Positions 1,108 through 42,352 of a stretch of DNA of 44,460 bases are shown here, in pieces. Source of the DNA: Cryomorphaceae bacterium (GTDB lineage Bacteria > Bacteroidota > Bacteroidia > Flavobacteriales_D > Cryomorphaceae); the NCBI GenBank assembly GCA_003565555.1, contig PXBH01000199.1, positions 1-44,460 on the forward strand, given 5' to 3'. A program made the translations under genes and the position numbers. How positions within the stretch are numbered: the stretch's first letter is position 1; each line of letters begins with the position of its first letter. The notes under the pieces were generated by a model that worked only from the letters and a program-made list of their open reading frames with translations, was not told where the DNA came from and did no database searches.

Positions 1108-2445
1108 TTATTCGAGCAGTGTACCGGCTTCGAAGAGGAGGCCGGTTTCTGCGAGCTTTACGGCGATGCGCCGCGTGCTGATCTCATTTCGCGCGCGGAT
1201 CAGGTTGAGCTGGGCCTCCCTGAGTTCGATGCCCGTAATCTGCCCGTTGGCGAATGCATCCCGACTTCGGTCGTAATTGGCTTCCGCTAAATCGAGGTTG
1301 CGCTCGCTGAGTTGAAGGAGCTTTCGCCCCGTGATGTATTCGTCGTAGGCATTGCCGATCAGGGCGGTAATTTCGTTTTCGGCACGTTCTTGCTCTACTT
1401 CCGCGGCGCGCAGGGAAAGCCTGGCGTTCTCGATATTCCGCCTTACGCGCCCTCCGTCGAAGAGGAAGAAGCGGAGGGTAAGTCCGGCGTTCCATCCGTA
1501 ATTTTCTTGGGTGTTCAGGAAGTTGGCCTCAAAATCACTGAAGGCGTAGCGGTATCCGCCTTGTGCATCCAGAGTGGGATAGCGGTCTGCTTTCGTGGCG
1601 CGGAGGGCTTGTTCGGCCCCGTACACCTCATTGCGGGCCCTGAGGTATGCGGTGTTTTTTGATCGGGCTTTATCGAGGAGCGGCGATTTATCGGGCAGGT
1701 CCGTAAAGGCGAAGACAGAGTCTGTGGTGAGTGCGGTATCGGCGGGGATACCGATGGCCAAAAAGAGGTCGCGGCGTGCGCGCACATAATCGAGGTTGGC
1801 CTCGGCGAGGGTTATGCTGTCGGTGCGGAGGTCCACTTCTGCATTGAGCACCTGCAGACGTGTGAAGCTCCCGAAAGAATAATTTTCGCGCGCCCTTCGG
1901 AGTCTTTCCTCAGAGAGGTCCGTGGCCTCTCGGGCAATGGCTTCCGCATCGCTGTAGCGCAGTGCTTCGAGGTAGCGTGAGATCACGGTGAGGGCAGTAC
2001 TCTCCATGGCGAGTTTTTCGCGCAAGCGCGCATCTTCACTTCTGCTTTCGAGTTCGCGCAAGGTGTAGAGTCGCCGGCCGCCGTTGAAGAGGGTGTAGTT
2101 TACCGCAGCCGCGGCATTGTAACTCACGGTCTGCGCATCTTCTGCACTGATGGGCGCCTGTTCGGGGTTGGGAAAGGTGATGTCTGTATTCTGCAAAAGG
2201 TACTCTGCTCCGCCGTCGAGAAATACCGTGGGCAGCAAACCGGCATTGCCGGGCTCAGCGAGATTCTGATCGATCTGCTTGCTCAGCGCAGCGGTGCGCA
2301 CGTCATAATTGTGCTCCAGCGCCAGGATTACGGCATCTTCGAGACTGATCGTTTGCGCTTTTGCCGACGACACGGGAGTACATACGCAAAACGCTGAATA
2401 AAGCACGACGGCGGTGATGTACACAGTTTTGTTCATGTTCCTCAT
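1108..2445 (-). CDS. TolC-type outer membrane efflux channel
   Basis: A 445-residue outer membrane factor of the TolC/OprM family, expected to trimerise into the exit duct of the tripartite pump encoded just upstream. The N-terminus is a signal peptide ending near AKA-Q (about residue 31). The first mature segment, ISLEDAVILALEHNYDVRTA, is the classical start of an OEP repeat. The rest is long amphipathic helices in two internally similar halves, rich in Glu, Arg and Asn, as in this family. The ATG overlaps the pump's stop codon by four bases (ATGA, 2442-2445), so translation is coupled. A second methionine at residue 4 is an alternative start. The substrate cannot be read from the sequence. 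Confidence 0.92.
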   Translation of the reverse strand: MRNMNKTVYITAVVLYSAFCVCTPVSSAKAQTISLEDAVILALEHNYDVRTAALSKQIDQNLAEPGNAGLLPTVFLDGGAEYLLQNTDITFPNPEQAPISAEDAQTVSYNAAAAVNYTLFNGGRRLYTLRELESRSEDARLREKLAMESTALTVISRYLEALRYSDAEAIAREATDLSEERLRRARENYSFGSFTRLQVLNAEVDLRTDSITLAEANLDYVRARRDLFLAIGIPADTALTTDSVFAFTDLPDKSPLLDKARSKNTAYLRARNEVYGAEQALRATKADRYPTLDAQGGYRYAFSDFEANFLNTQENYGWNAGLTLRFFLFDGGRVRRNIENARLSLRAAEVEQERAENEITALIGNAYDEYITGRKLLQLSERNLDLAEANYDRSRDAFANGQITGIELREAQLNLIRARNEISTRRIAVKLAETGLLFEAGTLLE

Positions 2446-5400: not shown

Positions 5401-5585
5401 TCCTCAATTTCTTGCGGGGAAGCGCCGGGATACACCGCCTCCACAATGATGAATTTTTCCTTTTCGGCCGGAAAGAACGAGGTGTTGAGACGGCTTCCGA
5501 GGGTAAGTCCGAAGATGACCGTAACGGCCAAGGCGAGGTATACGAGAAGCTGATTTTCGATGAAAAATTTAACGAGCCGCTTCAT
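2442..5585 (-). CDS. RND-family efflux pump, inner membrane permease
   Basis: A 1047-residue RND (AcrB/HAE-type) proton-driven transporter, full length for the family. It begins with a short cytoplasmic stretch and TM1, followed by the porter-domain start PGASPQEIEEGIT and a glycine-rich, multi-helix membrane block. The fourth membrane helix has GILVDDGIVVGEN, whose paired aspartates are the expected proton-relay residues. The second half repeats the fold and contains the matching GVLINDGLVFINAF. The C-terminal tail is charged. It sits between the adaptor and TolC genes with ATGA overlaps on both sides, making a complete tripartite system. It resembles multidrug pumps rather than CusA-type metal pumps, but no methionine-relay analysis was done and the substrate is unknown. 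Confidence 0.95.
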   Translation of the reverse strand: MKRLVKFFIENQLLVYLALAVTVIFGLTLGSRLNTSFFPAEKEKFIIVEAVYPGASPQEIEEGITLKIEDNLKSVSGIDRVTSVSTENTARITVEILLRADADVVLQDVKNAVDQISNFPEGTERIVTFKQEIINFTSKLAVTGDVSLAALEQVATRVEDELRALPGISKIEVAGYPDPEIEVAVKEDKLRAYNLTFADLAEAVSAQNIQITGGRVRGPEETIIRSDHKVYTADELRDIAVKTFSDGSQLRLSELADVRDDWDESTDAGFLNGRPAVFITVNTLNEEDILEAAEKVERYVAEFSGDNPRVQLVLVKDGTVNLKERIALLQKNGLLGALLVFVILGLFLRIRLAFWVALGIPVSFLGMFILIYFTGITINVLSLFGMILVIGILVDDGIVVGENIFQHYERGKKPFRAVIDGTVEVFPSVFSAIFTTCVAFSFFYFVEGRLGEFFSDVAVVVSAALAFSLVEVILFLPAHLAHSKDLSKAGKPNKVKNAIEQVLIRFRDNIFQPALEFCLRYKVFTFFVSTALFVLTVGAIGGGMIRGTFFPNIEQNEITVSLELPSGTAESVTRAAMEYVVRRIDALNEEYAVREDVGKNMYTDVEVVLGPNSNEGKATFYLVSSENRTLRSFDITTDMRKAVGGVPGAEKLSFVAFSPFGKAVNVSFSSQDFERLRAAVDDFKGMLSETGDVKDLVTNDRADRPELNLALNDAGRALGFTEMELISQVRNGYFGYEAQRLQRGDKEVKVWVRYAIDDRRDIEQLSQMRVRAPNGEAVTLSDVAELRPQDGLISINHRDGKREITVEGEVASLEVSTPELLSKIQDEMVPVILARYPGVGVSYEGQQRETGKLQNSVKRVGPIILLIILITMIISFRSYTQAFALLVLLPFGIIGAAWGHYIHDQPISVLSFLGIIALLGVLINDGLVFINAFNGYLKAGKSYNAALKATSLSRFRPLFLTTVTTSAGLGPLILEKSFQAQFLIPMAISIAYGLLLGSLFVVLLLPVTLTMFNRLKVFLRWLWEGEKPSPEHVEQVIRREKREEAEI

Positions 5586-6703
5586 TCCCGAATATCGGTT
5601 GGGTTAACCTTGGTGCCTTCAAAGGCTTCATTGTGACGATCGGTGATGAGGTGTCCGGGGGCTTCCACACCGCTCACCACCGCGATTTCCGAAGTTTTGT
5701 GCAGAATGTCTACAGGCACGAGTGCGGCTGTACTGTCTCTTACCATATACACATATCGATCCGCCACCAGCGCTCTCACGGGCACGGTTACAGCATTGTC
5801 AAAAGTCTCGGCAGGCGTTCTTCCTTCGAGATAGATGCCGCTTTTGGCACGGTCACTCCTCACGGTAGCGTAAACTTTTACCTGCTGGGTGAGGGGGTCT
5901 ACCGCATCGTTGATCCTGGCAATTTCGGCCGTGTACTCGCGGCCGGTATTCACATCCCGCATAGCGAAGCTGAGTCCCTTTTTCAGAATCTCGGCATCGC
6001 GGTAGCTCACGCCTGCTTCGAGCTCGTAGCGTCCCGTGCTGATAAATTCACCCAGGGGCTGCCCGGTGCGTACCAAAGATGAAGCATCAATTTCAGCGGA
6101 AATCACCGTTCCCGAAAAGGGAGCGCGAATCACGTGCTTGGCCAGCCGCGTTTCGGATTCTCTGATGGAGTAGTAGGAGGTGAAAATATTGCGCCCGCTC
6201 AGGAAGAGCCGTACCTGCCTGTCTTCAATGTCGGGCAGTTCGGGGAGGGGTTTGGTAATATCCAGGTCTTCGAGGTAATTCTTCCAAGTTTCCGCCTCAT
6301 CGGGGAAATCGATTTTGAGATCGGGGATTACACCCGCAAGGAGACTTTGCAATTCGCTGCGCGCCGCAGATAAGCTGCTTTCAATCTCATCGGCATTGAT
6401 CTTGAGCAGCACCTCACCTTTGCCGAAGCGCACGCCCGGCTTGAAGGGCTTTTCGCCGAATTCGGCCATGCCGCCGACTTCTGCAAAGATGCTTACCGTG
6501 CTCTCGGGCACGAGACGTCCGGTGATTTTTACGCTGCGCTCTACGGGTCCGGGTTTTACATAGACGGCATTCACGGCGGTGGCAATGTTCAGGGAATCGC
6601 CTTCACGCACACGCGGCTCTTTTTTCAAAAATCCGGAGAGGTATATGCTCAATGCCAATATGGCCAAGCCTGCGAGTGATACCGCCAGTTTTCGCTTATT
6701 CAT
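5582..6703 (-). CDS. RND periplasmic adaptor (membrane fusion protein)
   Basis: A 373-residue HlyD/AcrA-type adaptor with an N-terminal membrane anchor (residues 7-26). A split lipoyl-like domain follows, around GRLVPESTVSIFAEVGG and later HVIRAPFSGTVISAE, then a beta-barrel segment near ARINDAVDPLTQQVKVYATV. The hairpin between the lipoyl halves (about residues 105-190) is not a regular heptad coiled coil. It contains proline-rich and acidic stretches such as KPLPELPDIEDRQV, so it differs from the AcrA pattern. It is the first gene of the efflux operon, and its stop overlaps the pump start by four bases. I found no clear promoter motif in the upstream intergenic region. Confidence 0.9.
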   Translation of the reverse strand: MNKRKLAVSLAGLAILALSIYLSGFLKKEPRVREGDSLNIATAVNAVYVKPGPVERSVKITGRLVPESTVSIFAEVGGMAEFGEKPFKPGVRFGKGEVLLKINADEIESSLSAARSELQSLLAGVIPDLKIDFPDEAETWKNYLEDLDITKPLPELPDIEDRQVRLFLSGRNIFTSYYSIRESETRLAKHVIRAPFSGTVISAEIDASSLVRTGQPLGEFISTGRYELEAGVSYRDAEILKKGLSFAMRDVNTGREYTAEIARINDAVDPLTQQVKVYATVRSDRAKSGIYLEGRTPAETFDNAVTVPVRALVADRYVYMVRDSTAALVPVDILHKTSEIAVVSGVEAPGHLITDRHNEAFEGTKVNPTDIRE

Positions 6704-10846: not shown

Positions 10847-11590
10847 TTACTCGGCGTACCTCTGCGATACCGCGTCCCAGTTGATCAAATTGAAAAAACC
10901 GTCGATGTATTCTGCCCTTCTGTTTTGATAATTCAGGTAGTAGGCATGCTCCCATACATCCAGTCCGAGAAGCGGTTTTCCCGTGCGTTCGGCGATTTTT
11001 GCCATCAGGGGGTTGTCCTGATTTTCGCTTTGCGCAATGAAAAGCCCGTTTTCATCCCGACAAAGCCAGGCCCAGCCCGATCCGAAAACCCCGGCTGCCG
11101 CTTTGGAAAACTCCTCCTTAAAGCTGTCAAAACTTCCGAAGGCGGTCTTTATTTCAGATTGAAGCGAGGCTGCGGGTCGGTTGCTGCCTCCCGGGGTAAG
11201 AATTTCCCAGAAAAGGCTGTGGTTGTAGTGGCCCCCGCCGTTGTTGCGCAGTGCGGTATTTTTTTCCGAATCGTCCGCAACGGCCATCAGGGCTTCGAGA
11301 CTCTTCCCGTGCAAATCGGGATGGTCCTCGAGGGTGGCGTTCAGCTTCTTCACATAGCCCGCGTGGTGCTTGCCGTAATGCAGGTCCATGGTGCGCGCAT
11401 CGATGTAAGGTTCGAGGGCATCTGAGGCAAAGGGGAGAAGGGGCAGAGCAAAGGGTTCAAAACCGGCCGACTTGCCGCCCGAGGCATCACTGCGGGAGGG
11501 TGCGTCGCTCCCGCAGAAGGTGAGCAGAGGGGCTGCCGCGACGCCGGCGGCTGCAAGTCCGGTAAGTCTGAGAAATTCTCTTTTCTTCAT
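10847..11590 (-). CDS. sodA: exported Fe/Mn superoxide dismutase, Mn-type residues
   Basis: A 247-residue protein converting superoxide to oxygen and peroxide. Metal ligands are H71, H124, D211 and H215, the last two in DVWEHAYY. NNGGGHYNHSLFW (glycine, not glutamine, before the second ligand) and Q191 in ENQDNPL favour manganese-type or cambialistic enzymes over iron-type. Unlike cytoplasmic SODs it has an N-terminal export signal, MKKREFLRLTG followed by a hydrophobic alanine/leucine stretch. The KR-x-F-L motif is a twin-arginine-like variant, and C26 after LLTF could be a non-canonical lipobox. It therefore probably acts in the periplasm or at a membrane surface. It is monocistronic, with TACTTTTG upstream. 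Confidence 0.93.
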   Translation of the reverse strand: MKKREFLRLTGLAAAGVAAAPLLTFCGSDAPSRSDASGGKSAGFEPFALPLLPFASDALEPYIDARTMDLHYGKHHAGYVKKLNATLEDHPDLHGKSLEALMAVADDSEKNTALRNNGGGHYNHSLFWEILTPGGSNRPAASLQSEIKTAFGSFDSFKEEFSKAAAGVFGSGWAWLCRDENGLFIAQSENQDNPLMAKIAERTGKPLLGLDVWEHAYYLNYQNRRAEYIDGFFNLINWDAVSQRYAE

Positions 11591-11612
11591 AGTGCGAAAT
11601 TCTGAGGGTTGT

Positions 11613-11620
11613 CAAAAGTA
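11613..11620 (-). promoter_or_regulatory. -7 element of the superoxide dismutase gene
   Basis: TACTTTTG on the minus strand is a full match to TAnnTTTG. It lies 22 bases before the ATG at 11590, giving a short leader of about 15 bases. No -33 TTTG is found at the expected spacing. Confidence 0.5.
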
Positions 11621-11659
11621 AACAATGCCTCACCCGATTGTTTAGAACGGCACGGGAGG

Positions 11660-11893
11660 TCAATCGTTTTTAGCGATTTTTTGGGATTCTCGCACTTTGA
11701 GCACCACCGCCGATCCGAAAACCGAAAGCCCGGCATTGAACACCACCAAGGCTGCGGTGCCGTAGGTGATCCACACTGCGGGTGCGCTTCCGCTGAATTT
11801 GACCAATGCGGCATCGGCGGTCAGCGCCAGCCCCATTCCCGTAAGCGCTAAGCCGAAACCCGCGCGCACAAAGCTCGATTGAAAGTTCAGCAT
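11660..11893 (-). CDS. small two-helix membrane protein, unknown function
   Basis: A 77-residue protein with two hydrophobic helices (about residues 8-30 and 40-66) joined by a short loop, and a basic C-terminal tail (VRESQKIAKND). Helix-lining glycines and alanines are frequent. It resembles short conserved hypothetical membrane proteins of Bacteroidota, but I cannot assign a function. It is encoded alone between the superoxide dismutase and the divergent membrane protein gene at 11994. Confidence 0.75.
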   Translation of the reverse strand: MLNFQSSFVRAGFGLALTGMGLALTADAALVKFSGSAPAVWITYGTAALVVFNAGLSVFGSAVVLKVRESQKIAKND

Positions 11894-11957
11894 TTTCTTC
11901 CTGTTTGATATTTCGGCTAAGTTCGCAAATTACAGCGACCCGCTTTCGCACACAGAT

Positions 11958-11988
11958 TTTGTCGAAAAGCTTGCGTTTCATATCTTAG
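11958..11988 (+). promoter_or_regulatory. Bacteroidota -33/-7 promoter
   Basis: TTTG at 11958-11961, exactly 19 bases, then TATCTTAG at 11981-11988, which has one mismatch to TAnnTTTG. Five bases later comes the GTG start at 11994. The spacing equals the consensus for the primary sigma factor of the phylum. The transcription start would coincide with the start codon, so the message is predicted to be leaderless. Confidence 0.65.
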
Positions 11989-11993
11989 TAACT

Positions 11994-12644
11994 GTGTCAC
12001 GGTTGCGCCATAAATTTTATGAAAAGGAGCCCCGAGAACAAGCCGCTTGGCTGCGGAGAGTTTGGATGCTTTTCCTGCTCGCCGCGGGAATTCTTGTTTT
12101 GATCGCATGGCTGATCGGATGGTGGATTCTCGCCGTCGGCGTATTTCTCCTGATGTTTTTTGCACCTTTCATCGATACTCCGGGCGGCTACCGCAGCGGA
12201 AAGCTCGAATATTACGGGCCGCTTCTCATCGGTGAAAAGGAGCGCAGGGGCAAGATTGTCCTGCACGGGGGAACTTTGTTTGATTACATGTTCACCTTGG
12301 ACGGGCTCAAACCGGGTCGCGAGCGCAAGTCAGCTGTACTCAGGGAGCTCGGATACGGCCTGGAATCATTGGCGCACAGCGATCTCGATGACAGCGTGGT
12401 GCTCGAAGGGACCAGCTATTTTCCGGGAGAGCGGAGCCTGGGTCGCTACGGTTTCAGGACCGAGCCGATTTCGTTTTTTCGTTTCGCGATTTTAGTTTTC
12501 AACTATCCGCTTCTCTTTTTGTCAAAGCGATACGTTACAGGTCGTTGGGAATTTCTCTCCCTGCGAAATGTCCGCACATTCAGGGGCACCGTCGGGTCTT
12601 TGAGGCGCAGCCTGAAGAAAAAGCAATCCGGGCAACCGTCCTGA
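11994..12644 (+). CDS. membrane-anchored protein of unknown function
   Basis: A 216-residue protein starting at GTG. After a basic N-terminus (MSRLRHKFYEKEPREQ) come two closely spaced hydrophobic helices, about residues 23-59, separated by GWW. The C-terminal two thirds are soluble and basic at the end (RRSLKKKQ). A second hydrophobic patch at FFRFAILVFNYPLLFLS (about 162-178) could be a re-entrant or third segment. The conserved-looking block YYGPLLIGEKERRGKIVLHGG does not match a family I recognise. The start is supported by the promoter ending five bases upstream. It lies 53 bases before the Mrp operon on the same strand, but that operon appears to have its own promoter, so a functional link is only suggested. 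Confidence 0.75.
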   Translation: MSRLRHKFYEKEPREQAAWLRRVWMLFLLAAGILVLIAWLIGWWILAVGVFLLMFFAPFIDTPGGYRSGKLEYYGPLLIGEKERRGKIVLHGGTLFDYMFTLDGLKPGRERKSAVLRELGYGLESLAHSDLDDSVVLEGTSYFPGERSLGRYGFRTEPISFFRFAILVFNYPLLFLSKRYVTGRWEFLSLRNVRTFRGTVGSLRRSLKKKQSGQPS

Positions 12645-12662
12645 ACCGGCTGCCGAAATTGC

Positions 12663-12692
12663 CTTGCCCGTTTCGCATTTCGGTTATCTTTG
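12663..12692 (+). promoter_or_regulatory. promoter of the Mrp antiporter operon
   Basis: TATCTTTG at 12685-12692 is a perfect -7 element, and CTTG at 12663-12666 is a plausible -33 element with an 18-base spacer. The ATG of the first subunit follows after five bases (12698), again predicting a leaderless message for the whole operon. Confidence 0.65.
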
Positions 12693-12697
12693 CGCCC

Positions 12698-15016
12698 ATG
12701 CTCACAGCAGTTTTGTCGGGATTCGTTGCCGCCTTGGTATTGCCGCGCGTGATGCACGTTTTGCCGCGCTTGCAAAACCTGCTTTGGATCGCAGTTCCGT
12801 TGGGGTTGTGCGCATGGTTTGCCACCAAAATCCCGGCCGTTGCCCGCGGAGAAGTGCTCCGCGAGTCTGTAGCCTGGGTGCCCTCCCTCGGGGTAAACCT
12901 CGACTTTGTCATCGATGGTTTGTCGCTCCTTTTTGCACTGATGATCACGGGCATAGGCAGCCTTGTGTTCATTTACACAAGTGCGTACATGAAAGGGCAC
13001 AGGGAGCTCGACAAATTTTATGCTTACCTGAGCATGTTTATGGCCTCCATGCTCGGTCTTGTTCTGGCGGACGGGCTTATGCTCATGTTTGTTTTTTGGG
13101 AGCTCACGAGTATAAGTTCTTTCTTTCTGATCGGGTTCAAGAACAGCGAAGAAGCCTCCCGAAAATCAGCGCTCACCGCCCTCGCCGTCACGGGAGTGGG
13201 AGGGATGGGCCTGCTGGCCGCAGCGGTTATCGCCAAATCGGCCATGGGCACAGACAGTCTTGAGGCCCTATCTGCTTCGGGCGAGATCCTCCGCGAGGGT
13301 CCGCTTTCGGGCTTGCTGATCGCATTGGTTTTTCTTGCGGCATTTACCAAATCTGCCCAGTTCCCGTTTCATTTTTGGCTCCCGGGAGCCATGAAGGCAC
13401 CCACGCCGGTGAGTACATACCTTCACTCAGCCACGATGGTAAAAGCCGGGATCTTTCTTCTGCTGCGCTTCAGCCCGGGTCTCAACGGCGCACCGCTCTG
13501 GAATGATGCCCTGATGATAGTCGGCGGATTTACCATGGCCTATGCGGCTGTTACGGCCCTCTTCAAGACGGATATGAAGTCCATTCTGGCCTACACCACC
13601 ATATCGGCCCTCGGCGTACTCACCTTTCTGATCGGGATCGGAACCTCTGCGGCGCTCACGGCAGCTCTCGTGTTTATATTGGTGCATGCCACCTACAAGG
13701 CTACACTCTTTTTGGTGACCGGCATTGTGGACCATGAAACGGGTACGCGGGATGTAACCGCCCTCCGCGGCCTGCGAAAGGTGATGATGCCCGTGGCGGC
13801 GGCCGCTGTCATCGCCGCGCTTTCGAGCGCGGGCCTCCCTTTGAGTTTCGGATTCATCGGCAAAGACCTGATTTACGAAAGCACACTCGAATTTTGGGGA
13901 AACGGCGCCCTCAACCTCGGCTTGGTTCTGACCGCCGTGGCTTTGATCACCAATGTCTTTCTCCTCCATGCAGGTTTTGTAGTCGGGATTAGGCCCTTTT
14001 CGGGAAAAATGCCCGACCGCTTCAGTGATCTCCACTTGCCCTCGCCGCTCATGTGGGTGCCTCCCCTCATTTTGGCGGTGCTTTGCCTGCTGTTCGGGTT
14101 GGTGCCGGCATTGCTCGAGAGCGGAATCGTGCACCCCTCACTTGCGGCATTGGGTTTCGAAGCAGAACCGGCACTCAAGCTGTGGCACGGATTTAACACG
14201 GTGCTCTTGCTGAGCGGTGTGACCCTCGCACTCGGTACCGCCGTCTACTTTGCCGTAAGGCCCTCTGAAAAATTGGAAGCAGCGCTCGATCGGTGGGCAC
14301 ATATCTCTCCCGAAACGGTCTTCAGAAAGGGAAGCCACCTCTTTCGGCTTTTTTCACGAAAGTGGACACTCTTTTTCCAAAACGGATACCTCCGCTATTA
14401 TGTGCTCATGATCCTTATCGTTCTCACGGGGCTGATAGGGAGTAGGATGTCAGGTGCCATTGATCTCAACGTGAACATTCTCACACTGCTCAACCTGAGT
14501 GCCTACGAGATCGCTATTGCCATTCTGCTGATCATCGGGATTACCGTAACGGTCTTCACCGGCTCGCGGCTCACTGCCGTGCTCGGGATGGGCGTGGTGG
14601 GGTATTCCATTTGCCTGTTTTTCGTTTTTTACAGCGCTCCGGATCTGGCCATGACGCAGTTTACCATTGATACCCTCACCGTGATACTGTTCGTTTTGGT
14701 GCTTTACCGTTTGCCGCGGTACCTGAAGCTGTCTGATATGCGTTCACGTGCGCGGGATTGGGTGATTGCTTCGGTATTCGGTTTTATGCTGACCTTGATT
14801 GCCCTGGCTGCAGTGGAGGAGGGCACCAACCGCGAGACTTCCGAATACTATGCGGACAATGCCTACCTGCTCGCCAAGGGAAAGAACATTGTCAATGTGA
14901 TTTTGGTCGACTTTCGGGGCACTGATACGATGGTAGAAATTGTGGTGCTCGGAGTGGCGGCCGTCGGGGTATTCAGCCTTTTAAAACTTCGATTGAAAAA
15001 ACCTGATGTAAAATAA
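12698..15016 (+). CDS. mrpA: Mrp cation/proton antiporter subunit A
   Basis: A 772-residue polytopic protein homologous to NuoL, the largest subunit of the Mrp Na+(K+)/H+ antiporter complex. It shows the NuoL-like core, with FWELTSISSFFLIGF holding the essential membrane glutamate, then FTKSAQFPFHFWLPGAMKAP and STYLHSATMVKAG. The long C-terminal extension of further helices (beyond about residue 600) is the MrpA-specific part that mixes MbhE-like and NuoJ-like features. The length fits the family. The start at 12698 is preferred to an upstream in-frame methionine because the family begins directly with a hydrophobic helix and because a -7 element ends five bases upstream. It is the first gene of a complete A-to-G set. 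Confidence 0.93.
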   Translation: MLTAVLSGFVAALVLPRVMHVLPRLQNLLWIAVPLGLCAWFATKIPAVARGEVLRESVAWVPSLGVNLDFVIDGLSLLFALMITGIGSLVFIYTSAYMKGHRELDKFYAYLSMFMASMLGLVLADGLMLMFVFWELTSISSFFLIGFKNSEEASRKSALTALAVTGVGGMGLLAAAVIAKSAMGTDSLEALSASGEILREGPLSGLLIALVFLAAFTKSAQFPFHFWLPGAMKAPTPVSTYLHSATMVKAGIFLLLRFSPGLNGAPLWNDALMIVGGFTMAYAAVTALFKTDMKSILAYTTISALGVLTFLIGIGTSAALTAALVFILVHATYKATLFLVTGIVDHETGTRDVTALRGLRKVMMPVAAAAVIAALSSAGLPLSFGFIGKDLIYESTLEFWGNGALNLGLVLTAVALITNVFLLHAGFVVGIRPFSGKMPDRFSDLHLPSPLMWVPPLILAVLCLLFGLVPALLESGIVHPSLAALGFEAEPALKLWHGFNTVLLLSGVTLALGTAVYFAVRPSEKLEAALDRWAHISPETVFRKGSHLFRLFSRKWTLFFQNGYLRYYVLMILIVLTGLIGSRMSGAIDLNVNILTLLNLSAYEIAIAILLIIGITVTVFTGSRLTAVLGMGVVGYSICLFFVFYSAPDLAMTQFTIDTLTVILFVLVLYRLPRYLKLSDMRSRARDWVIASVFGFMLTLIALAAVEEGTNRETSEYYADNAYLLAKGKNIVNVILVDFRGTDTMVEIVVLGVAAVGVFSLLKLRLKKPDVK

Positions 15017-15073
15017 CGAACATTCTGCATGAAAGCTTTACCGCCGTTCCGTGCAAATCAATAAAATCTCACC

Positions 15074-15487
15074 GTGAATACACTGATTCTCAAAACAGCA
15101 TCTAAGTTTTTATTGCCCTTGCTGCTGATGTTTTCCGTATTTCTTCTTCTGCGCGGGCACTACCTTCCGGGCGGCGGATTCGTGGGCGGCTTGGTGGCTT
15201 CGATAGCCTTTGTGCTCCATGCTTTTGCTTATGACATGCAGAGCAGCAGGCGCCTGTTGCGGGTACATCCGGGATTCCTTATCCCGGCGGGACTTGCCCT
15301 TGCCGCCCTCAGCGGCATATTTCCGATGGTTTACAGCGACCTGCCTTTTATGACGGGGGTGTGGTATCCCGAATCGGTGCCTGTGATCGGATCCATCGGC
15401 ACGGCACTTTTTTTTGACATCGGCGTGTACCTTGTTGTGGTGGGATCGGTACTTACCATAATCATGACCTTATCTGAATCAGCCTGA
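15074..15487 (+). CDS. mrpB: Mrp antiporter subunit B
   Basis: A 137-residue membrane protein with four helices. The conserved loop [13 protein letters not shown] (about residues 28-40) identifies MrpB. The start is GTG. The 57-base gap after subunit A is the only sizeable gap in the operon and shows no promoter or hairpin. The separate A and B genes place this among group 1 operons. Confidence 0.9.
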
Positions 15488-15840
15488 TGCATCTACTTCT
15501 GGCCATATTTACGGGTATTTTGTACGCTGCGGGGATTTACATGATTCTCCGCCGCAGTTTGGTGAAACTGATCATCGGATTGGTGCTGCTCGGCAACGGG
15601 GTGAATCTGCTGATTTTCCTTATGGGAAGTTTGGTGAAGGGCGGCCCGCCGATTATTCCCGAAGCGTCAAAGGTGATCGAAGGGCCTTTCGATGACCCCA
15701 TTCCTCAGGCATTGATCCTCACGGCTATCGTGATCAGTTTCGGCTTGCAGAGCTTCGCCATTATCCTTTTGAAACGCACGTATCAGGTGGTTAAAACTGA
15801 CGACTTGGACGAGATTAACACGACTGACGAATTCGCATGA
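15487..15840 (+). CDS. mrpC: Mrp antiporter subunit C
   Basis: A 117-residue, three-helix NuoK homologue. The family hallmark [17 protein letters not shown] (about residues 29-45) carries the conserved asparagines, and [17 protein letters not shown] forms the third helix. The start codon overlaps the subunit B stop by one base (TGATG). The C-terminal tail is acidic and cytoplasmic. Confidence 0.92.
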
Positions 15841-17363
15841 GTCCCCAACTGATCTTTTGGCCGGTCTTGTTTCAACTCCTTCTTGCAGTTGCGCTTCTGT
15901 TTCTTTGGCGAAAAGTGCAGGTGCAGCGTGCAGTGAGTATTGCCGGAAGCACAGTGGCCGTGGTGCTCAGTGCCGCGCTTTTCACGCTGACCCTGCGCGA
16001 CGGCATCGGGACGGTGCAAGCGGGAAATTGGCCTGCACCGTTCGGGATTGCCTTGGTTTCCGATACCCTGTCATCCCTGCTCGTGCTGCTCACTTCTCTG
16101 GCGGGTCTCGCCGTTTCGGTATTCTCCTCGGCCTCCGTTACGGGTGCGCGGCTCAAATTCGGTTATTTTCCGGTATTCCATATCCTTTTGATGGGCCTCA
16201 ACGGCGCTTTTCTCACCGGCGATTTGTTCAATCTCTACGTTTGGTTTGAGGTCATCATCATCTGCAGTTTTGTGCTGATCACCCTCGGCACGGAACGAAA
16301 ACAGCTGGAAGGTGCCGTGAAATATTTCACCCTCAACATGCTGGCCTCAATCATTTTCCTTACCGCCATCGCCGTAATTTACGGGTTGACAGGTTCCCTC
16401 AATCTCGCCGATATTTCAATCCAAATCGCAGCCATCGAGAATCGCTTCCTCGTTGAGATTGCCGCCGTTCTCTTCTTTGTCGGATTCGGTATTAAGTCAG
16501 CCGTTTTCCCGCTTTATTTCTGGTTGCCGGCCTCTTACCACACGCCGCCGGATGCGGTTTCGGCGATTTTCGGCGGACTTCTGACCAAGGTGGGGGTGTA
16601 TGCTTACCTTCGAATATTCACCCTGATTTTTGCCGGAGACGCCTTTATTCGCGAGCTTTTGGTTACGGCCGCCATCCTTACCATCGTCAGCGGAGCACTC
16701 GGAGCGCTGATTCAGAACAATCTCCGCAAGGTTTTCTCTTACCTTATCGTTTGCCACATCGGCTTTATGATTGTGGGCATCGGACTGGGTACGGAGACGG
16801 CCTATGCGGGCACGGTGTCTTACCTCATTCACGACATTGTGGTAAAAACGAACCTTTTTCTTGTGGCGGGATTGATTTTCAGAGTAAAAGGCTCCGTGAG
16901 CCTACGAGATATCGGCGGCTTGTACAAGCGCTATCCTTGGCTCTCCCTTTTGATAGCGGTTCCGCTTTTTTCGCTGGTCGGTATTCCGCCGCTTTCCGGA
17001 TTCTGGCCCAAGATATCCCTTTTCGGCGCAGCTACGGAAACGCGTTCCTTTTGGGTTTTGGGTGCCTTGATTTTCGGGAGTGTGCTCACCCTGATCATCG
17101 TCGCCAAGGTATGGGCCGCGGCGGTTTGGAAGGAACCTTCCGGAAAAAACCCGCCCGTCAAAATGGTGCTTTTCGATCAGATTTCGAAGGAGCGGCGAAT
17201 TCTCTATGTGCTTCCGATTGTTTTGCTGAGCTTGGTATCTTTGTACATCGGATTCGGAGCAGAGCACATTCAGGAAATCGCCGGCCGAGTAGCCGCAGAC
17301 CTTATCAACCCGGATGCTTACATTGAGGCGGTTCTTTATCCCGCCGGAAAATCATCGCCGTGA
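15837..17363 (+). CDS. mrpD: Mrp antiporter subunit D
   Basis: A 508-residue NuoM/NuoN-like proton-translocating subunit with about fourteen helices. Motifs include [19 protein letters not shown] with the membrane glutamate, [25 protein letters not shown] with the conserved lysine, and [13 protein letters not shown]. Full length for the family. It overlaps subunit C by four bases (ATGA) and subunit E by four bases (GTGA), so translation of the membrane complex is tightly coupled. Confidence 0.93.
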
Positions 17364-17836
17364 GAAGTCGCTTTTTGATAAATATATTGCTCACCCTCGT
17401 CTGGGTCGCCCTGACGGGAAGCTATGATGCCACCACATTCCTCTTCGGATTTATACTGAGTTTTTTGGTGATCTGGATCATAGGACGGGATGAAGAAAGC
17501 AGAAAGTATGCAGCCTTTGCACCGCGCATTGTCTCATTCTTTTTCTTTTTTCTCTATCAATTGGTCAAAGCCAATATTCAGGTGGCCTATGACGTGGTGA
17601 CGCCTACATTTTACATGAAGCCGGGAATCGTCAGGGTTCCCCTCGACGCGAAGACGGATTTGGAAATCACACTGCTCGCGAATTTTATAAGCCTCACCCC
17701 GGGCACCCTGAGCCTTGATGTGTCGGATGACCGAAAGGTGCTTTATGTGCATGCCATGTTTGTGAAGGATAAAGAGGAATTCATTCGTGAAATCAAAGAG
17801 GGCTTTGAGCGGAAACTCTTGCAAATATTGAGATGA
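17360..17836 (+). CDS. mrpE: Mrp antiporter subunit E
   Basis: A 158-residue protein with two to three N-terminal helices and a soluble C-terminal domain. The family signature is visible as KANIQVAYDVVTP and NFISLTPGTLSLDV, followed by a cytoplasmic alpha/beta tail. GTG start within the subunit D stop. MrpE is needed for complex assembly and full activity in characterised systems. Confidence 0.9.
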   Translation: MRSRFLINILLTLVWVALTGSYDATTFLFGFILSFLVIWIIGRDEESRKYAAFAPRIVSFFFFFLYQLVKANIQVAYDVVTPTFYMKPGIVRVPLDAKTDLEITLLANFISLTPGTLSLDVSDDRKVLYVHAMFVKDKEEFIREIKEGFERKLLQILR

Positions 17837-17837
17837 G

Positions 17838-18170
17838 ATGACGTTGTACGACTTCCTGTATTACTTCATCCTTCCCGTCTTGGCCGCTTCTGCCTTGTTG
17901 GTTTTCGTGCGCTTTTTCATCGGGCCTTCCATTGCCGACCGCGTGGTAGCCTTCGATCTGCTCATTGTGATCGGGACGGGGCTTATTGCCATATACAGCA
18001 TCATCACTGATCAGCCTACAGCCCTGGATATCGCCATGATATTCGCCCTTATTGCTTTTTTGGGAACCACGGCCATGTCGTACTACCTCAAGAAGTCGCA
18101 ACGTAAAAAATCGCACAGAGAGAATCTCCCGCGAAAACCTAAAACCTCCGCCGCCCGTGACAGCAAGTGA
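17838..18170 (+). CDS. mrpF: Mrp antiporter subunit F
   Basis: A 110-residue, three-helix protein. The motif FIGPSIADRVVAFDLL with the conserved membrane Asp-Arg pair identifies MrpF. The C-terminal tail is unusually long and basic (KKSQRKKSHRENLPRKPK). The start lies one base after the subunit E stop, and the 3' end overlaps the subunit G start by 14 bases. Confidence 0.9.
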   Translation: MTLYDFLYYFILPVLAASALLVFVRFFIGPSIADRVVAFDLLIVIGTGLIAIYSIITDQPTALDIAMIFALIAFLGTTAMSYYLKKSQRKKSHRENLPRKPKTSAARDSK

Positions 18171-18549
18171 AATCGTTATTGCCGTGCTGGCCTCCTTCGG
18201 GGCTCTGTTCAGCTTGCTGGCGGGAATCGGAATTATCCGCATGCCCGATGTGTACCTCCGCATTTCCGTGACCACCAAGGCCGCCTCTCTCGGGGTGGGT
18301 TTGCTATTGGTCTGTGCCGCACTTTACTTCAGAGAACCTTCGGTGACTACCAAGGTCTTGGCCATCATTCTTTTTGTGCTGCTCACAGCACCCGTCGGCG
18401 CCCACCTCATCGGCCGTGTGGCCTATATGCTCGGGGTTCCCCTTTGGGAGAAGTCGGTGGTTGACGACCTGAAAGGCAAGTACAAAGGGCGTTCGCAGGC
18501 TTTGCAGAGCAGTGAGGGTACAGGGGGTGCTGATTCTCGGGAAGATTAG
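18157..18549 (+). CDS. mrpG: Mrp antiporter subunit G
   Basis: A 131-residue, three-helix protein with the MrpG hallmarks LAGIGIIRMPDVYLRI and SVTTKAASLGVG. The start is taken as the GTG at 18157, since the frame further upstream encodes only subunit-F-overlapping basic sequence and MrpG normally begins at the first helix. It ends the operon. Its TAG shares bases with the convergent PBP1A stop. With subunits A to F it completes a hetero-oligomeric antiporter for sodium and alkaline-pH homeostasis. Confidence 0.88.
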   Translation: MTASEIVIAVLASFGALFSLLAGIGIIRMPDVYLRISVTTKAASLGVGLLLVCAALYFREPSVTTKVLAIILFVLLTAPVGAHLIGRVAYMLGVPLWEKSVVDDLKGKYKGRSQALQSSEGTGGADSRED

Positions 18550-36836: not shown

Positions 36837-36890
36837 ATGAAGACCTTTGACCATTCGCTGAAAATAATCATAAAGACCTTATTTTGCTAA
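36837..36890 (+). other. possible 17-codon leader ORF upstream of the second receptor
   Basis: ATG AAG ACC through TAA encodes MKTFDHSLKIIIKTLFC in another frame and overlaps the putative TTG start of the receptor by seven bases. A TACATTGG sequence (one mismatch to TAnnTTTG) ends six bases before its ATG. It could be a translated leader, or the real N-terminus interrupted by a one-base difference, because the two frames joined together would read as a basic, hydrophobic signal sequence. Confidence 0.3.
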
Positions 36891-39310
36891 GAAGCAAAAT
36901 TCTGTGTCTGGTCATGACGGTTTTATGTTTCGGCATAAACGCCTCTTTTGCCCAAACCGGATTTAAAGGAAAAGTCTCCGACGGAGACTCCGGTGAACCC
37001 ATGCCTTTCACCAATGTGACACTGCTCAACCTCCCTGATTCGTCACTTGCGGGCGGCGCCACCACGGATGCAGACGGGAACTTTGAAATATCCTCAACTC
37101 CGGGCAATTTTCTGATCCGCATCACTTTTGTGGGCTACCGCGAGTACTACCGAGAGGTAGAAACGGAGGAAGGAAAGGTTAATAACCTCCGAAATCTGAA
37201 AATATCCCCGGACTCGAAATTACTGGACGAGTTTGAAGTTCAGGCCCTAAAATCCACCTTCAAGTCTGATATCGACAAGCGTGTATTCAACGTTGAGAAC
37301 AGCATTGTTGCCGAGGGCGGAACGGCCATAGATGTGCTTGAGACCTTGCCCTCCATACAAATTGATGAGGAAGGAGGCATCAGCATGCGGGGCAGCGGGG
37401 AGGTGATGATTTACATCAACGGACGCCCCACCAACCTCAGCGCCGATGACGCCGAAAGTATTCTTGCACAATTTCCCGCGAACAGCGTAAAAAATATTGA
37501 GTTGATTACCAACCCTTCTTCGAGATACGACGCCGCAGGCGCCGGGGGTATTATCAACATCATATTGAAAAAGAATACGAAAACCGGATTCAACGGTCAG
37601 ACCAATGCGGCCGTGGGAACGCGAAACAAATACACCTCAGGCCTGAACCTCAATTACGGCTCCGGAAAAACCAATTACTACCTTTCATACGCTTTCGACT
37701 ACAACGAACGCTTCGGAAAAAACGAAACAAGTCGGGAAAACTTCGGCGACGATGCCTCCCGCTTTCTGGACCAAGACTACTTTACCCTGACCACACGGCG
37801 AAACCATATGGTAAGGGTGGGAGCGGATCACAATTTCACTGAGCAGACCAACATCGGTTTCTACGGCAGGGCGAGTGTAGATAACAGGATTCGAAACAGG
37901 GACTACAACCAACTGCTGAGAAATTCTGAAGGACTTACCGACAGTTTGATTTTCAGAAATATTTGGGAAACCAACTTTCAGCAAAACTATGAGGCGGGCC
38001 TCAACTTCACCCACGAATTTGATACGGCCGGCACCAAACTCACGGCGAGCGCATCCTATGCGTACGATGACCGCGACCGGATGGAGGTATTCACCCAAAA
38101 TATCACCTACGGGAGCGGTGCAGCGGCTCCCTCGCGCAGGACTTTAGAAGAATTCGGCAGGCCGCGCAGCAATACGCTCATTCAGGCCCAAGCTGACTTT
38201 GAAAAATATCTCGGAGAATCGGGCAGGATAGAGGCCGGTTGGAAAACTACGGTTTCCTCCGAGCTACGCCCTCAGACCTTTGACATCTTTGACTTCGAGA
38301 CGGGTACCTTCAGCCGTGACCCGGAGGTCACCAACGAAGTCAGCCTCGACCGCCAAATTCATGCGCTGTATGCCATTTACCGCGGCGAATGGAACAAGGT
38401 AGGTTACCAATTGGGTTTGCGTGCAGAGCAAACCATAGATGTGCTTTACGATGAGAACAGCGATCAAAATTATGACCGCGATTATCTCGATCTTTTCCCG
38501 AGCGTCTACTTCACCTATGCCACAGGTGACAACAGTGATTTTATTGTGAATTACAGCAGACGTATTAACCGACCGGGGCTGTGGGGCTTGGCTCCCTTAC
38601 TCAATTTGCAAGATCCGCTGAATCAGCGAATCGGAAATCCGAACCTGAAGCCTTCATACACGGATAGTTACGAAATCGGCCAAGCCAAATCGTGGAAGAA
38701 TTATTTTATGACGGCTACTGTATTTCATCGAAGGACTTATGATACCATGACGCGAATTTTCGTAAGTGACGGAACGAGTACCGTGATGACCAGAGAAAAC
38801 CTGAACAATGAGTTCTCCACCGGCCTGGAAGTCATCAATCAGGTGGAAGCCGGGAATTGGTTTGACGCTACACTTACGGCAAATGTCTTTTACGCCGAGG
38901 TGGTGGGCGCGGTGGGAGAGGACGAATTTCGTCGCAGCAACTACAGTTGGACCGTCAGCCTCCTGTCAAACATTAAGCTGGGGGATATCGGTACGGCACA
39001 AATCACGGGAAATTACCGCGGGCCTATTGTTCGCCCGCAAGGGCTGATCAAGCCGCTCTACGGTATCAACGTGGGCTTCAGAAGAGAAGTACTGAAAGGC
39101 AAGGGCACCCTGGCCTTAAATGTTACCGATGTATTTAATACCCGCAGGTTCATCATCGATATCGACGATCCTCTTTTCGTGCAAAACCGGACTTTTGACT
39201 GGGAAACACAGATCGCCACAGTATCTTTCACCTACAGGTTCGGGGGATATAAAGAAAAACCGGGAGAGCGACGCGGCGGAGGCGGAGGGCCTGACGAGGA
39301 CGCATTTTAG
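36884..39310 (+). CDS. TonB-dependent receptor-like barrel protein (OMP_b-brl_3 type)
   Basis: An 808-residue outer-membrane protein starting at TTG. The signal peptide is LRSKILCLVMTVLCFGINASFAQ. A CarboxypepD_reg-like domain (about 27-110: FKGKVSDGDSGEPMPFTNVTL) and a plug follow, the plug having DVLETLPSIQIDEEGGISMRG and GRPTNLSADDAESILAQFP, then GAGGIINIILKKNT, typical of the PF14905-like family. The rest is barrel, ending with FTYRFGGYKEKPGERRGGGGGPDEDAF. The glycine-rich acidic tail lies after the last barrel strand, which is unusual. The TTG start is uncertain, since no ATG gives a full signal peptide. Substrate unknown. Confidence 0.85.
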   Translation: MLRSKILCLVMTVLCFGINASFAQTGFKGKVSDGDSGEPMPFTNVTLLNLPDSSLAGGATTDADGNFEISSTPGNFLIRITFVGYREYYREVETEEGKVNNLRNLKISPDSKLLDEFEVQALKSTFKSDIDKRVFNVENSIVAEGGTAIDVLETLPSIQIDEEGGISMRGSGEVMIYINGRPTNLSADDAESILAQFPANSVKNIELITNPSSRYDAAGAGGIINIILKKNTKTGFNGQTNAAVGTRNKYTSGLNLNYGSGKTNYYLSYAFDYNERFGKNETSRENFGDDASRFLDQDYFTLTTRRNHMVRVGADHNFTEQTNIGFYGRASVDNRIRNRDYNQLLRNSEGLTDSLIFRNIWETNFQQNYEAGLNFTHEFDTAGTKLTASASYAYDDRDRMEVFTQNITYGSGAAAPSRRTLEEFGRPRSNTLIQAQADFEKYLGESGRIEAGWKTTVSSELRPQTFDIFDFETGTFSRDPEVTNEVSLDRQIHALYAIYRGEWNKVGYQLGLRAEQTIDVLYDENSDQNYDRDYLDLFPSVYFTYATGDNSDFIVNYSRRINRPGLWGLAPLLNLQDPLNQRIGNPNLKPSYTDSYEIGQAKSWKNYFMTATVFHRRTYDTMTRIFVSDGTSTVMTRENLNNEFSTGLEVINQVEAGNWFDATLTANVFYAEVVGAVGEDEFRRSNYSWTVSLLSNIKLGDIGTAQITGNYRGPIVRPQGLIKPLYGINVGFRREVLKGKGTLALNVTDVFNTRRFIIDIDDPLFVQNRTFDWETQIATVSFTYRFGGYKEKPGERRGGGGGPDEDAF

Positions 39311-39357: not shown

Positions 39358-40428
39358 TCAGTACCGCGTAACCAAGGCCAAGCCCGAAAAATCTTCCATC
39401 GCTTCCGGATCGGCAAAGACCACATCGCCTCCGTGTTTGATTTGTGCGGAGATGATTTCGTCTACCAAATCAGCAACGGCATCGGGTCCTGAGGTGCTGC
39501 CGTCATCTGCAATTTCTATGTTGGTGCCGTTCATTTTGCCCGGTTGATGGTATCCTTCCGCCACAAAGACCGTTTTACCCTTGCCCTCGTGTATGGCGCG
39601 CCACACTTGATTGAGATCGCTCTCGAGCAGGTTGGAACCTTTCGCTTTGTTCAGCTCTTCAAGACGCGCTTTATTCTTTTCTGCGATGTGGCGCTCCAAT
39701 ACTTTTCGGGCCTCTTTGATGACCTCATAAGCGGTGTAGTCCATCCTGTTTTTGTTCAGGTGTCCCGCTACGGCTTCCTTGTAGCCTGTTACATTCATGT
39801 AATGGTGAAAATTGCGCTCCTCTGTGCATACCACCACGGGAAGAACTTCTTTTTTCAGGATTTCCTGCATGGAGCGGTCCACCTTGCTGAAAAATTCTTC
39901 AATCATCTGCTCCGTCTTTCCCGCCATGGTTGATTTGAGCTTGTCGTCCACGTAATACATTTCGTTTTCAACAGGAAATTCATCTTCCACTTCAATAATT
40001 TCTTTCCCTTGTTCCGCTTTCAGAAGCCGTGCCGAATCTCTGCTCAGCACCAAGGCATAAAAACTCTGTCTTCGGTGCATGGCCTTCACGATATCCCGCA
40101 TGGCAAAACTCCGGTCCACCACGGCGCGGTTTTCCACACTGACGTCAAGGCGGACGAAATCGTGAAACTTCTCATTTACAAATATCAGCATGCTGTCTCG
40201 GTTGAGATTGTGGTCAATGTCTTCACCGAGTTGTTCCAGCTTTTTTTCTATAGCTTGCGCTGCGCTTTTCTCGCAGGTTTCTTTGACTTTTTGCAGTGCC
40301 TCCTTGGCGAAATTTTTATACTGAATGCTGTCCGCCTGATTGTCGGGGGCGGTGCGGTGGGTGTTAAAAATCAGTGTGACATTACAAGCCGTTGCTTCAG
40401 TTTGAAGCTTTGATATTAAGTCTTTCAT
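39358..40428 (-). CDS. aeRF1-like protein (baeRF, Balon-type hibernation factor candidate)
   Basis: A 356-residue protein of the bacterial archaeo-eukaryotic release factor (baeRF) group. The N-terminal part (1-100) begins with helical MKDLISKLQTEATACNVTLIFNTHRT. The middle domain has SFYALVLSRDSARLLKAEQGK. The C-terminal L7Ae-like domain ends GGDVVFADPEAMEDFSGLALVTRY. No GGQ peptide-release motif is present, so it is not expected to terminate translation. The group includes Balon, which binds the ribosomal A site and protects idle ribosomes in stress; a similar role is inferred here from fold and family resemblance only. It follows a small gene by 39 bases on the same strand, probably as an operon. 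Confidence 0.8.
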   Translation of the reverse strand: MKDLISKLQTEATACNVTLIFNTHRTAPDNQADSIQYKNFAKEALQKVKETCEKSAAQAIEKKLEQLGEDIDHNLNRDSMLIFVNEKFHDFVRLDVSVENRAVVDRSFAMRDIVKAMHRRQSFYALVLSRDSARLLKAEQGKEIIEVEDEFPVENEMYYVDDKLKSTMAGKTEQMIEEFFSKVDRSMQEILKKEVLPVVVCTEERNFHHYMNVTGYKEAVAGHLNKNRMDYTAYEVIKEARKVLERHIAEKNKARLEELNKAKGSNLLESDLNQVWRAIHEGKGKTVFVAEGYHQPGKMNGTNIEIADDGSTSGPDAVADLVDEIISAQIKHGGDVVFADPEAMEDFSGLALVTRY

Positions 40429-40467
40429 GAGGTGATTATTAAGGTTAGAGAATAAAATGAAGTCGGG

Positions 40468-40782
40468 TCAGATGCGCCCCCGAATATCGAGTTTCTTCAA
40501 CATCTCGGGCGAATATTCTCCCGCGTAGGCGCCGTATGCATCTACAAGGATACCGCGCAAATCGTCGTTTCCTTCAACCGCATATACAACGCTGGTGTCA
40601 CCGGGATTGCTTTTCCCCTCAAAACGGTAAAATTCAACGATTTCAAAATCTTCGGGATTCAGAGATACATCTGCGTCCTGATTGCAAATGAGCCGATTTC
40701 CCTCTTGCCGAAAATCGAGTTCGAAACCCCGCTTTTTGAGGTCGTCTGTAGCTTGTGATAAGGAGTCGTAGTTCTTAGGCAT
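40468..40782 (-). CDS. small conserved protein, often mislabelled PRPP synthetase
   Basis: A 104-residue acidic soluble protein. The start is at ATG 40782 (MPKNYDSLSQATDDLKKRGFELDF); the longer open frame upstream is unlike any homologue. Recognisable blocks are LNPEDFEIVEFYRFEGKSNPGD, VVYAVE and GILVDAYGAYAGEYSPEMLKKL. Databases often call such Bacteroidota proteins phosphoribosylpyrophosphate synthetase, but they are far too short and have no PRPP-binding motif, so that name should be ignored. Cotranscription with the aeRF1-like gene suggests a related stress role, which is inference. Confidence 0.8.
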   Translation of the reverse strand: MPKNYDSLSQATDDLKKRGFELDFRQEGNRLICNQDADVSLNPEDFEIVEFYRFEGKSNPGDTSVVYAVEGNDDLRGILVDAYGAYAGEYSPEMLKKLDIRGRI

Positions 40783-41069
40783 GTTTTTGGTTTGGCATGA
40801 AATTACACAGAATATTTCATAAGGAAGTTTGCCTCCTCCTGATTTAACGAAATTTCGATCTGCGGAATTCTTCTGAATCGCCCTTGACACAAGCGTTCGT
40901 TGTGTGCAGCGCAAAATGTTTGGCACCGTCAGGTAAAGGAAATGTTTGTGTGAAACCGGTTCTCAAGCGGGAGCAGGGCGCGCCTGTCTCGGGTGGGTTG
41001 GAGCCGGAGCGCAAGGCAGCTTGGGGTCTTTTCGCTCCGGAATTGCGCTGCGAAACGCACAGACAACCT
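40783..41069. other. intergenic region with two inverted repeats
   Basis: No gene is visible in these 287 bases. One inverted repeat, ACACAA (40887-40892) and TTGTGT (40900-40905), could be an operator for the small gene and aeRF1-like pair. A second, CCGGAGCG (41004-41011) and CGCTCCGG (41033-41040), has a 21-base loop and no T-run, and lies downstream of the exported orphan; it may be a weak terminator. I cannot find a convincing TAnnTTTG element. Confidence 0.35.
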
Positions 41070-41768
41070 TTAATCGCAGGCTTGCTCCGCTTTGCGCAGA
41101 CGTTTATTGAGCCTCTTCACCGCCGCTGCAGGGCTCCGCTTAAAAATGAAGTGGTCAAAGGTTCGAACAGAATAGGGAAAAGGGCGACTCAGCCCTTGAA
41201 AGCGGTGGTTCATGATGTGAAGGGCTTGATAGCCGCCGGCTGCTTTCGTGGGATTGTCACGTGTTGTTTTTTCCGTCTTTCCCTTATCGGAAAGATACAT
41301 GACCTCAATTTTCTCAGAAGGCTTCGAAGGAACGGTGCCGAATTCGGCGGTATAATAAATTCCCGAGGGGTAATCGATGTGTGCGTCGCGCTCGAGCTTT
41401 TCACCGAGAAAAAAAACGTTTTGCAAACGTTCTTCCCGCACATCTCGGCTCGATTCCGCCTCAAAGAAATAAACGGGACAGAAATCCCAATGCTTGTCAA
41501 AAGCTTCCTGAATCTTCCGGTTCCGCCGATTCCGTGCTTCGGCAAACTCATTCGCTTTGAGCTCTTTTCCCTCGCGCCGCAGGGCTTGAGAAACCTTACT
41601 GATGCTGTGAATGCGAACGAGGAGTGCACCGCTTTTCAGGGCACATATGTGGTGTGCTGCCAATTCCTTGTCCGTAAGCGCGCGAATCTCGCGGGCAGAA
41701 TGCACAGCTTGTGCCCCGACATATCCCGCTTGAAGCATTAAAATAAACAATACGGAGCCTCTGATCAA
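41070..41768 (-). CDS. exported protein of unknown function
   Basis: A 232-residue protein with a signal peptide (MIRGSVLFILMLQAGYVGAQ). The mature part is strongly basic and helical at both ends (RREGKELKANEFAEARNRRNRKIQEAF; RSPAAAVKRLNKRLRKAEQ). It has a beta-rich middle with VYFFEAESSRDVREERLQNVFFL and YYTAEFGT. Three cysteines could stay reduced or pair in the periplasm. I do not recognise a family. It is preferred over a long open frame on the opposite strand because it has a signal peptide and a balanced protein composition. It appears monocistronic. Confidence 0.7.
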   Translation of the reverse strand: MIRGSVLFILMLQAGYVGAQAVHSAREIRALTDKELAAHHICALKSGALLVRIHSISKVSQALRREGKELKANEFAEARNRRNRKIQEAFDKHWDFCPVYFFEAESSRDVREERLQNVFFLGEKLERDAHIDYPSGIYYTAEFGTVPSKPSEKIEVMYLSDKGKTEKTTRDNPTKAAGGYQALHIMNHRFQGLSRPFPYSVRTFDHFIFKRSPAAAVKRLNKRLRKAEQACD

Positions 41769-41838: not shown

Positions 41839-42225
41839 CTATTCTTTGTGGGCGTATTTGACCAAAGTAGCCAAAGGGATGTAGTCTATTGTGCGTTCAT
41901 GGGTCGCTTCGGGAACAATATTCGGCGCCACGCCTGCCTCGTAAGCCTCCTTCCATCGCAGCGCACAAAGGCACCATCGGTCACCGGGTTTTAGTCCGGG
42001 AAAGCGAAATTCCGGACGGGGTGTAATGAGATCGTTTCCGCGTGAACGTGAAAATTCAAGAAATGCATCGGTAACCACCGCGCAAACCGTATGCGTGCCG
42101 TGGTCTGAGCTGCCTGTACTGCAGCACCCGTCGCGGTAGAACCCCGTCATCGGGTCTTCGCTGCAGAGGATGAGTTTCTCCCCGAATATATTCTTATCGG
42201 GCTCCTTTTCGAAGTCTTGTGCCAT
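41839..42225 (-). CDS. DUF2237 family protein
   Basis: A 128-residue soluble protein with the DUF2237 signature KNIFGEKLILCSEDPMTGFYRDGCCSTG followed by GTHTVCAVVTDAFLEFSRSRGNDLITPRPEFRFPGLKPGDRWCLCALRW. The start is placed at ATG 42225; an upstream in-frame ATG would add a hydrophobic leader not expected in this cytoplasmic family. The conserved CC and CxC cysteines suggest metal binding or redox chemistry, but no activity is established for the family. No operon partner is evident. Confidence 0.88.
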   Translation of the reverse strand: MAQDFEKEPDKNIFGEKLILCSEDPMTGFYRDGCCSTGSSDHGTHTVCAVVTDAFLEFSRSRGNDLITPRPEFRFPGLKPGDRWCLCALRWKEAYEAGVAPNIVPEATHERTIDYIPLATLVKYAHKE

Positions 42226-42352
42226 AAGGTGAAGTAAAATCAGGATGGTGTAAATGTAGCCCATGGGAAGGGATTTTAATTCCTGCGTTTCTGCCGGAGC
42301 GAAAATTCAACGTACCCCCGTCTCTTTTGTTTTCAGTCACCGAAGCCTTTGC

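Follow-up and report, generated by a model that had tools for sequence, protein, structure and literature searches.

Whether the gene for a putative ribosome hibernation factor and the small gene immediately preceding it form a conserved functional pair is the question raised by a locus of a Cryomorphaceae bacterium (GenBank assembly GCA_003565555.1). The locus lies within what we refer to as the window, i.e., the whole stretch of 44,460 nucleotides of contig PXBH01000199.1 analysed here. A preliminary description of this DNA had proposed that a 356-residue protein of the Balon group is encoded together with a 104-residue protein and that, if the pair is conserved, the latter could be a partner or regulator in ribosome protection. 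To answer the question, we consider the identity of each protein, the distribution and history of the arrangement, and the explanations that could account for it.

Organization of the two-gene locus

Both ORFs are present as described previously, on the minus strand with the small gene first and 39 bp between them. The features are as follows.

36884-39310, plus strand: OMP beta-barrel/TonB-like protein, 808 aa (PF14905, 1.3e-98), convergent to the Balon-type gene; the flank that marks the putative insertion point
39358-40428, minus strand: Balon-type (baeRF family 3) ribosome hibernation factor, 356 aa (PF18845, NF052287, 8rd8_B, tree)
40429-40467, minus strand: intergenic gap, 39 bp, without significant sequence conservation relative to the sister species G001
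40468-40782, minus strand: 104-aa member of a Bacteroidota family as yet uncharacterised (motif YRFEGxSNPxD; profile matches, 103 of 395 phylum genomes), often carrying an erroneous PRPP synthetase label
40783-40860, minus strand: conserved stretch preceding the small gene, containing ATTCTGTGTANTTTCA..CCAAAC (local alignment to G001); candidate promoter or leader

Each gene occurs in one copy in the 3.7-Mb genome (hereafter G000), and the orthologues in G001 share 75% (356-aa protein) and 69% (104-aa protein) identity. We consider both ORFs to be real genes because they are conserved in the sister species, where the proportion of differing sites is some five times lower at non-synonymous than at synonymous positions (pN/pS between G000 and G001 of 0.16/0.79 for the 356-aa gene and 0.17/0.86 for the 104-aa gene). 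An alternative upstream GTG start would extend the small protein to 152 aa; its homologues begin near the inner ATG.

Elsewhere in the window, a DUF2237 protein (41839-42264, E = 5e-55) is encoded upstream in the same orientation, in G000 as well as in G001. The G001 equivalent (L094, 11676-12340) of a 232-aa ORF at 41070-41768 seems split into two ORFs, which may reflect a draft-assembly frameshift or a decaying gene. Positions 1108-6703 and 12545-18549 hold ordinary RND efflux genes (outer membrane efflux protein, AcrB type) and a Mrp-type antiporter operon.

Identity of the 356-aa protein

The HMM search against baeRF families proposed in the preliminary description matched the 356-aa protein to Pfam PF18845 (baeRF_family3) with 114.5 bits (E = 8.7e-33), well above the cut-off of 31.5. 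NCBIfam NF052287, a model named for AOC03_06830, aligned to residues 5-355 with 321.3 bits (E = 1e-95), missing its curated cut-off of 330 bits by 9 bits; we therefore file the protein as a baeRF family 3/Balon-clade member rather than as a strict NF052287 equivalog, a threshold passed in only 3 of 395 phylum genomes. We take AOC03_06830 to be the locus tag of Balon in Psychrobacter urativorans. The sole PDB match was a chain of 8rd8/8rdv/8rdw (8rd8_B; phmmer 3e-42, residues 9-356), presumably the published Balon, though deposited under the name 'Methyl-accepting chemotaxis protein'. Since a single-sequence structure model of the 356-aa protein was too poor to use (pLDDT 39), this solved chain, with its full-length homology, stands in for the aeRF1 fold. 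Sequence scanning found both GGQ and NIKS missing. In a 34-row tree, whose midpoint root gives no direction, the protein groups with those of G001, G008 and G446 (support 100/99) and falls with P. urativorans Balon within one nine-row clade (support 99/98). Judged by these profiles and the tree, the 356-aa protein is an unexceptional representative of the established Balon family, so that the previously suggested aeRF1-like factor without GGQ is borne out, and Bacteroidota gains a family member close to the experimentally solved Balon. In G446, which belongs to another order, the Balon gene of this same clade (L098, 7493-8560) is interrupted in the assembly by a TGA codon, which might represent a pseudogene, a sequencing error or recoding.

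The 356-aa protein and Balon have in common a THRTxPDNQ segment and a C-terminal LALVTRY. Aligned, the segment reads THRTAPDNQ in the window, THRTSPDNQ in G001 and THREHPAND in Balon, and we infer that THRxxP corresponds to the HP motif of Balon. The residue before Pro is variable, being Ala in the window, Ser in G001, and Phe or Lys in other family members. In Balon, the HP motif contacts A1492 and A1913 at the decoding centre (PMC10901736); with the His of the putative motif replaced by Ala here and by Ser in G001, ribosome binding of the 356-aa protein may differ in detail. Balon binds the A site independently of mRNA, with EF-Tu-GDP and an inert catalytic centre (PMC10901736). By homology, starvation or stress would lead the 356-aa protein into the ribosomal A site in an mRNA-independent manner, probably accompanied by EF-Tu-GDP, and there it would block translation without peptide release.

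The 104-aa protein and its family

The family of the small protein is marked by a YRFEGxSNPxD motif in which R, F and G are invariant, and a profile search detected this family in 103 of 395 sampled Bacteroidota genomes, at times in several copies. None of 25 members matched Pfam or NCBIfam; with the 104-aa protein itself, a PDB search returned no significant match and a PHROGs search only weak single-member matches. Structure prediction for the 104-aa protein placed five strands between two helices (alpha-beta5-alpha, pLDDT 82). Neither Foldseek (best E 0.08, TM-score 0.36) nor VIA-align (Z of at most 3.8, for SH2 domains, with many rows tied) gave a significant match to this model, and we treat these structure searches as uninformative and do not read the predicted model as a new fold. 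No literature on the protein was found with the terms tried.

Two Flavobacterium plasmid homologues with 41% identity, for example that on NZ_CP092371 (across 91% of the 104-aa protein), carry the label 'phosphoribosylpyrophosphate synthetase'. The preliminary description had called this label untenable, and we agree: it is found on homologues without Pfam or NCBIfam support. An identity of the family as PRPP synthetase was rejected, as Pfam and NCBIfam detected no phosphoribosyltransferase-type domain in the 25 members. The annotation of a '100-aa PRPP synthetase' in Bacteroidota is thus empty, and the family is still uncharacterised. In Marivirga and a relative (L012-L015), the main small-family copy is immediately preceded, at about 4611-5276, by a diverged tandem paralogue that the profile matched weakly (E about 5e-4 to 9e-4); genes of the cysteine synthase, pyrB and pyrR types are nearby.

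Adjacency of the two genes across Bacteroidota

The Balon model matched in 105 of 395 phylum genomes, the same sample in which the small family was surveyed. Both families were present in 34 genomes versus 27 expected, which is near chance (Fisher p = 0.09 across 395 genomes, relatedness ignored). They lie within 5 kb of each other in 1 of these 34 genomes, namely the window's own, and the next closest pair is 48 kb apart; this survey covers pairs on one contig, and 1 of the 103 small-family genomes was without a listed place. An order-level sample of 399 genomes contained 10 with both families, adjacent only in G000 and G001 and 2.7 kb apart in G542. G000 and G001 were also the only genomes in which profile scans of short flanks (mostly 1.5 kb) recovered both together. 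No Balon gene was found beside the small gene at 13 homologue loci from a scan of genome contigs, one of which (L003) appears to be the G002 locus. Within the same taxonomic family, G003, G005 and G006 carry the small family without Balon. The genome of G008, which holds the nearest Balon outside the genus, encodes no small-family protein.

Adjacency is limited to this genus, in two (G000 and G001) of its three species. A recurrent operon of Balon and the small protein is not supported; the adjacency is a genus-level event. The proposed role of the small protein as a conserved partner or regulator in ribosome protection is likewise not supported because adjacency is confined to two species of one genus. 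For the survey across Bacteroidota, the preliminary description had set adjacency limited to this single genome against its own claim, and the distribution found here comes close to exactly that. A tempting functional link is thereby removed as unsupported.

History of the arrangement

The third species, G002, bears directly on the claimed pair: its small gene, OMP-barrel gene and next gene follow the same order as in the window, and the site of Balon is a 0.2-kb spacer of short tandem repeats, in which no Balon remnant was found. The Balon of G002 sits elsewhere in the genome, is 28% identical to that of the window and falls in a different clade, together with other families. In the tree, the proteins nearest to the window's Balon, its own genus aside, come from other families, and no Balon was found in the other sampled family members, G003-G007. 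Given this patchy distribution and the tree, the simplest history is probably a gain of Balon in the ancestor of G000 and G001, likely by lateral transfer, which fits the reported lateral spread of baeRF genes (PMC6514570). In that ancestor, the Balon gene would have arrived directly 3' of a resident small gene. Such a history would make the locus a clear-cut case of a hibernation-factor gene turning up downstream of one already resident.

It is conceivable, if doubtful, that the genus instead inherited Balon at this site from its ancestor and that G002 subsequently lost it, a reading that concerns only the history of the pair. The polarity rests on few genomes, with three species of the genus, and the tandem repeats of the spacer could mark a deletion; set against this, G003-G007 are without Balon, and both the patchy distribution and the tree favour transfer.

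Shared transcription and competing explanations

About 75 bp in front of the small gene are conserved between G000 and G001, with an alignment score of 43 against a shuffled mean of 19.5, a score reached by 1 of 500 shuffles. The gap between the two genes measures 39 bp in the window and 45 bp in G001 and is not significantly conserved. Taken together, the conserved upstream block, the short gap and its lack of significant conservation fit a single promoter before the small gene that probably serves both genes. A sigma-70-type promoter scan of the region yielded no more than shuffles, a consensus that is of little use for Bacteroidota promoters.

The explanation we favour, with a probability of roughly 0.8, is that a Balon-type factor was placed downstream of a resident, unrelated small gene and probably shares its transcription unit. 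The small protein would then have a function independent of Balon, and the two genes would now form a short transcription unit with its promoter upstream of the small gene. The pair has been kept since G000 and G001 split, with synonymous sites saturated and purifying selection on both genes, so that expressing the two together may bring this lineage some advantage. The same-strand arrangement with 39-45 bp spacing, kept in two species, could also be expected of a dedicated Balon partner or regulator (e.g., an anti-hibernation or loading factor) forming a functional module, for which one might add that G542 carries a small-family gene 2.7 kb from a distant baeRF gene, with a catalase gene between them. 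We regard such a module as very improbable, given that each family is common in the absence of the other (for the small family, in G003, G005 and G006), that the 33 other genomes with both show no adjacency, and that the nearest Balon outside the genus (G008) occurs without the small protein. Less credible still is a composite in which a small-family stress protein is occasionally recruited with baeRF/Balon genes and would act here as a true accessory of a Balon minus its decoding-centre His.

A tentative refinement, compatible with the favoured placement of Balon behind an unrelated gene, is that the small gene belongs to a general stress regulon and that the insertion brought Balon under stress control, the two genes being mechanistically unrelated and usefully co-expressed. 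We consider this plausible for a minority of outcomes. The neighbours of the small gene vary between clades: thiol peroxidase, globin, hemerythrin-like and cupin genes lie near it at five loci, and a thioredoxin-like AhpC/TSA gene at five loci, while catalase, SDR and baeRF genes accompany it in G542. The names of these stress-type neighbours, in the five-locus groups as in the G542 cluster, were assigned by inspecting the sequences rather than by searching for domains. Published Balon genes are also typically found in stress operons (PMC10901736). Against the refinement, no stress neighbour general to the whole small family was found, and seven queries from the G542 cluster gave 0 matches in 20 small-gene regions versus 3 (one SDR query) in 19 control regions. 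As the stress queries used showed no enrichment over control regions, a stress-type role of the small protein is a mild best guess and a lead only.

The G542 locus (L161, C23:40001-60000) is the only place outside the genus with a small-family gene and a baeRF gene within 5 kb. Two small-family paralogues flank its stress-type cluster, which comprises the baeRF gene (11173-12342), a catalase gene (12599-14734), a general-stress SDR and a DUF4180-like protein.

Comparison with known Balon and baeRF systems

The genomic setting of the window's Balon differs from those published. Balon neighbours reported elsewhere include RaiA and Hsp20, none of which adjoin the gene here. Several families of the baeRF-1 clade, which includes baeRF family 3 (PF18845), adjoin an HPF gene (PMC6514570), whereas the family 3 gene of the window has no such neighbour. 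Two S30AE/HPF genes are located on contigs other than that of the window, indicating that hibernation partners are present in the genome, though not as neighbours. At the protein level, the THRxxP segment ends in His-Pro in P. urativorans Balon (AOC03_06830; PMC10901736) and in Ala-Pro in the window protein. In other respects the two are alike, with full-length homology within the same clade, neither GGQ nor NIKS, a loop of similar length before the middle-domain helix and the same C-terminal end.
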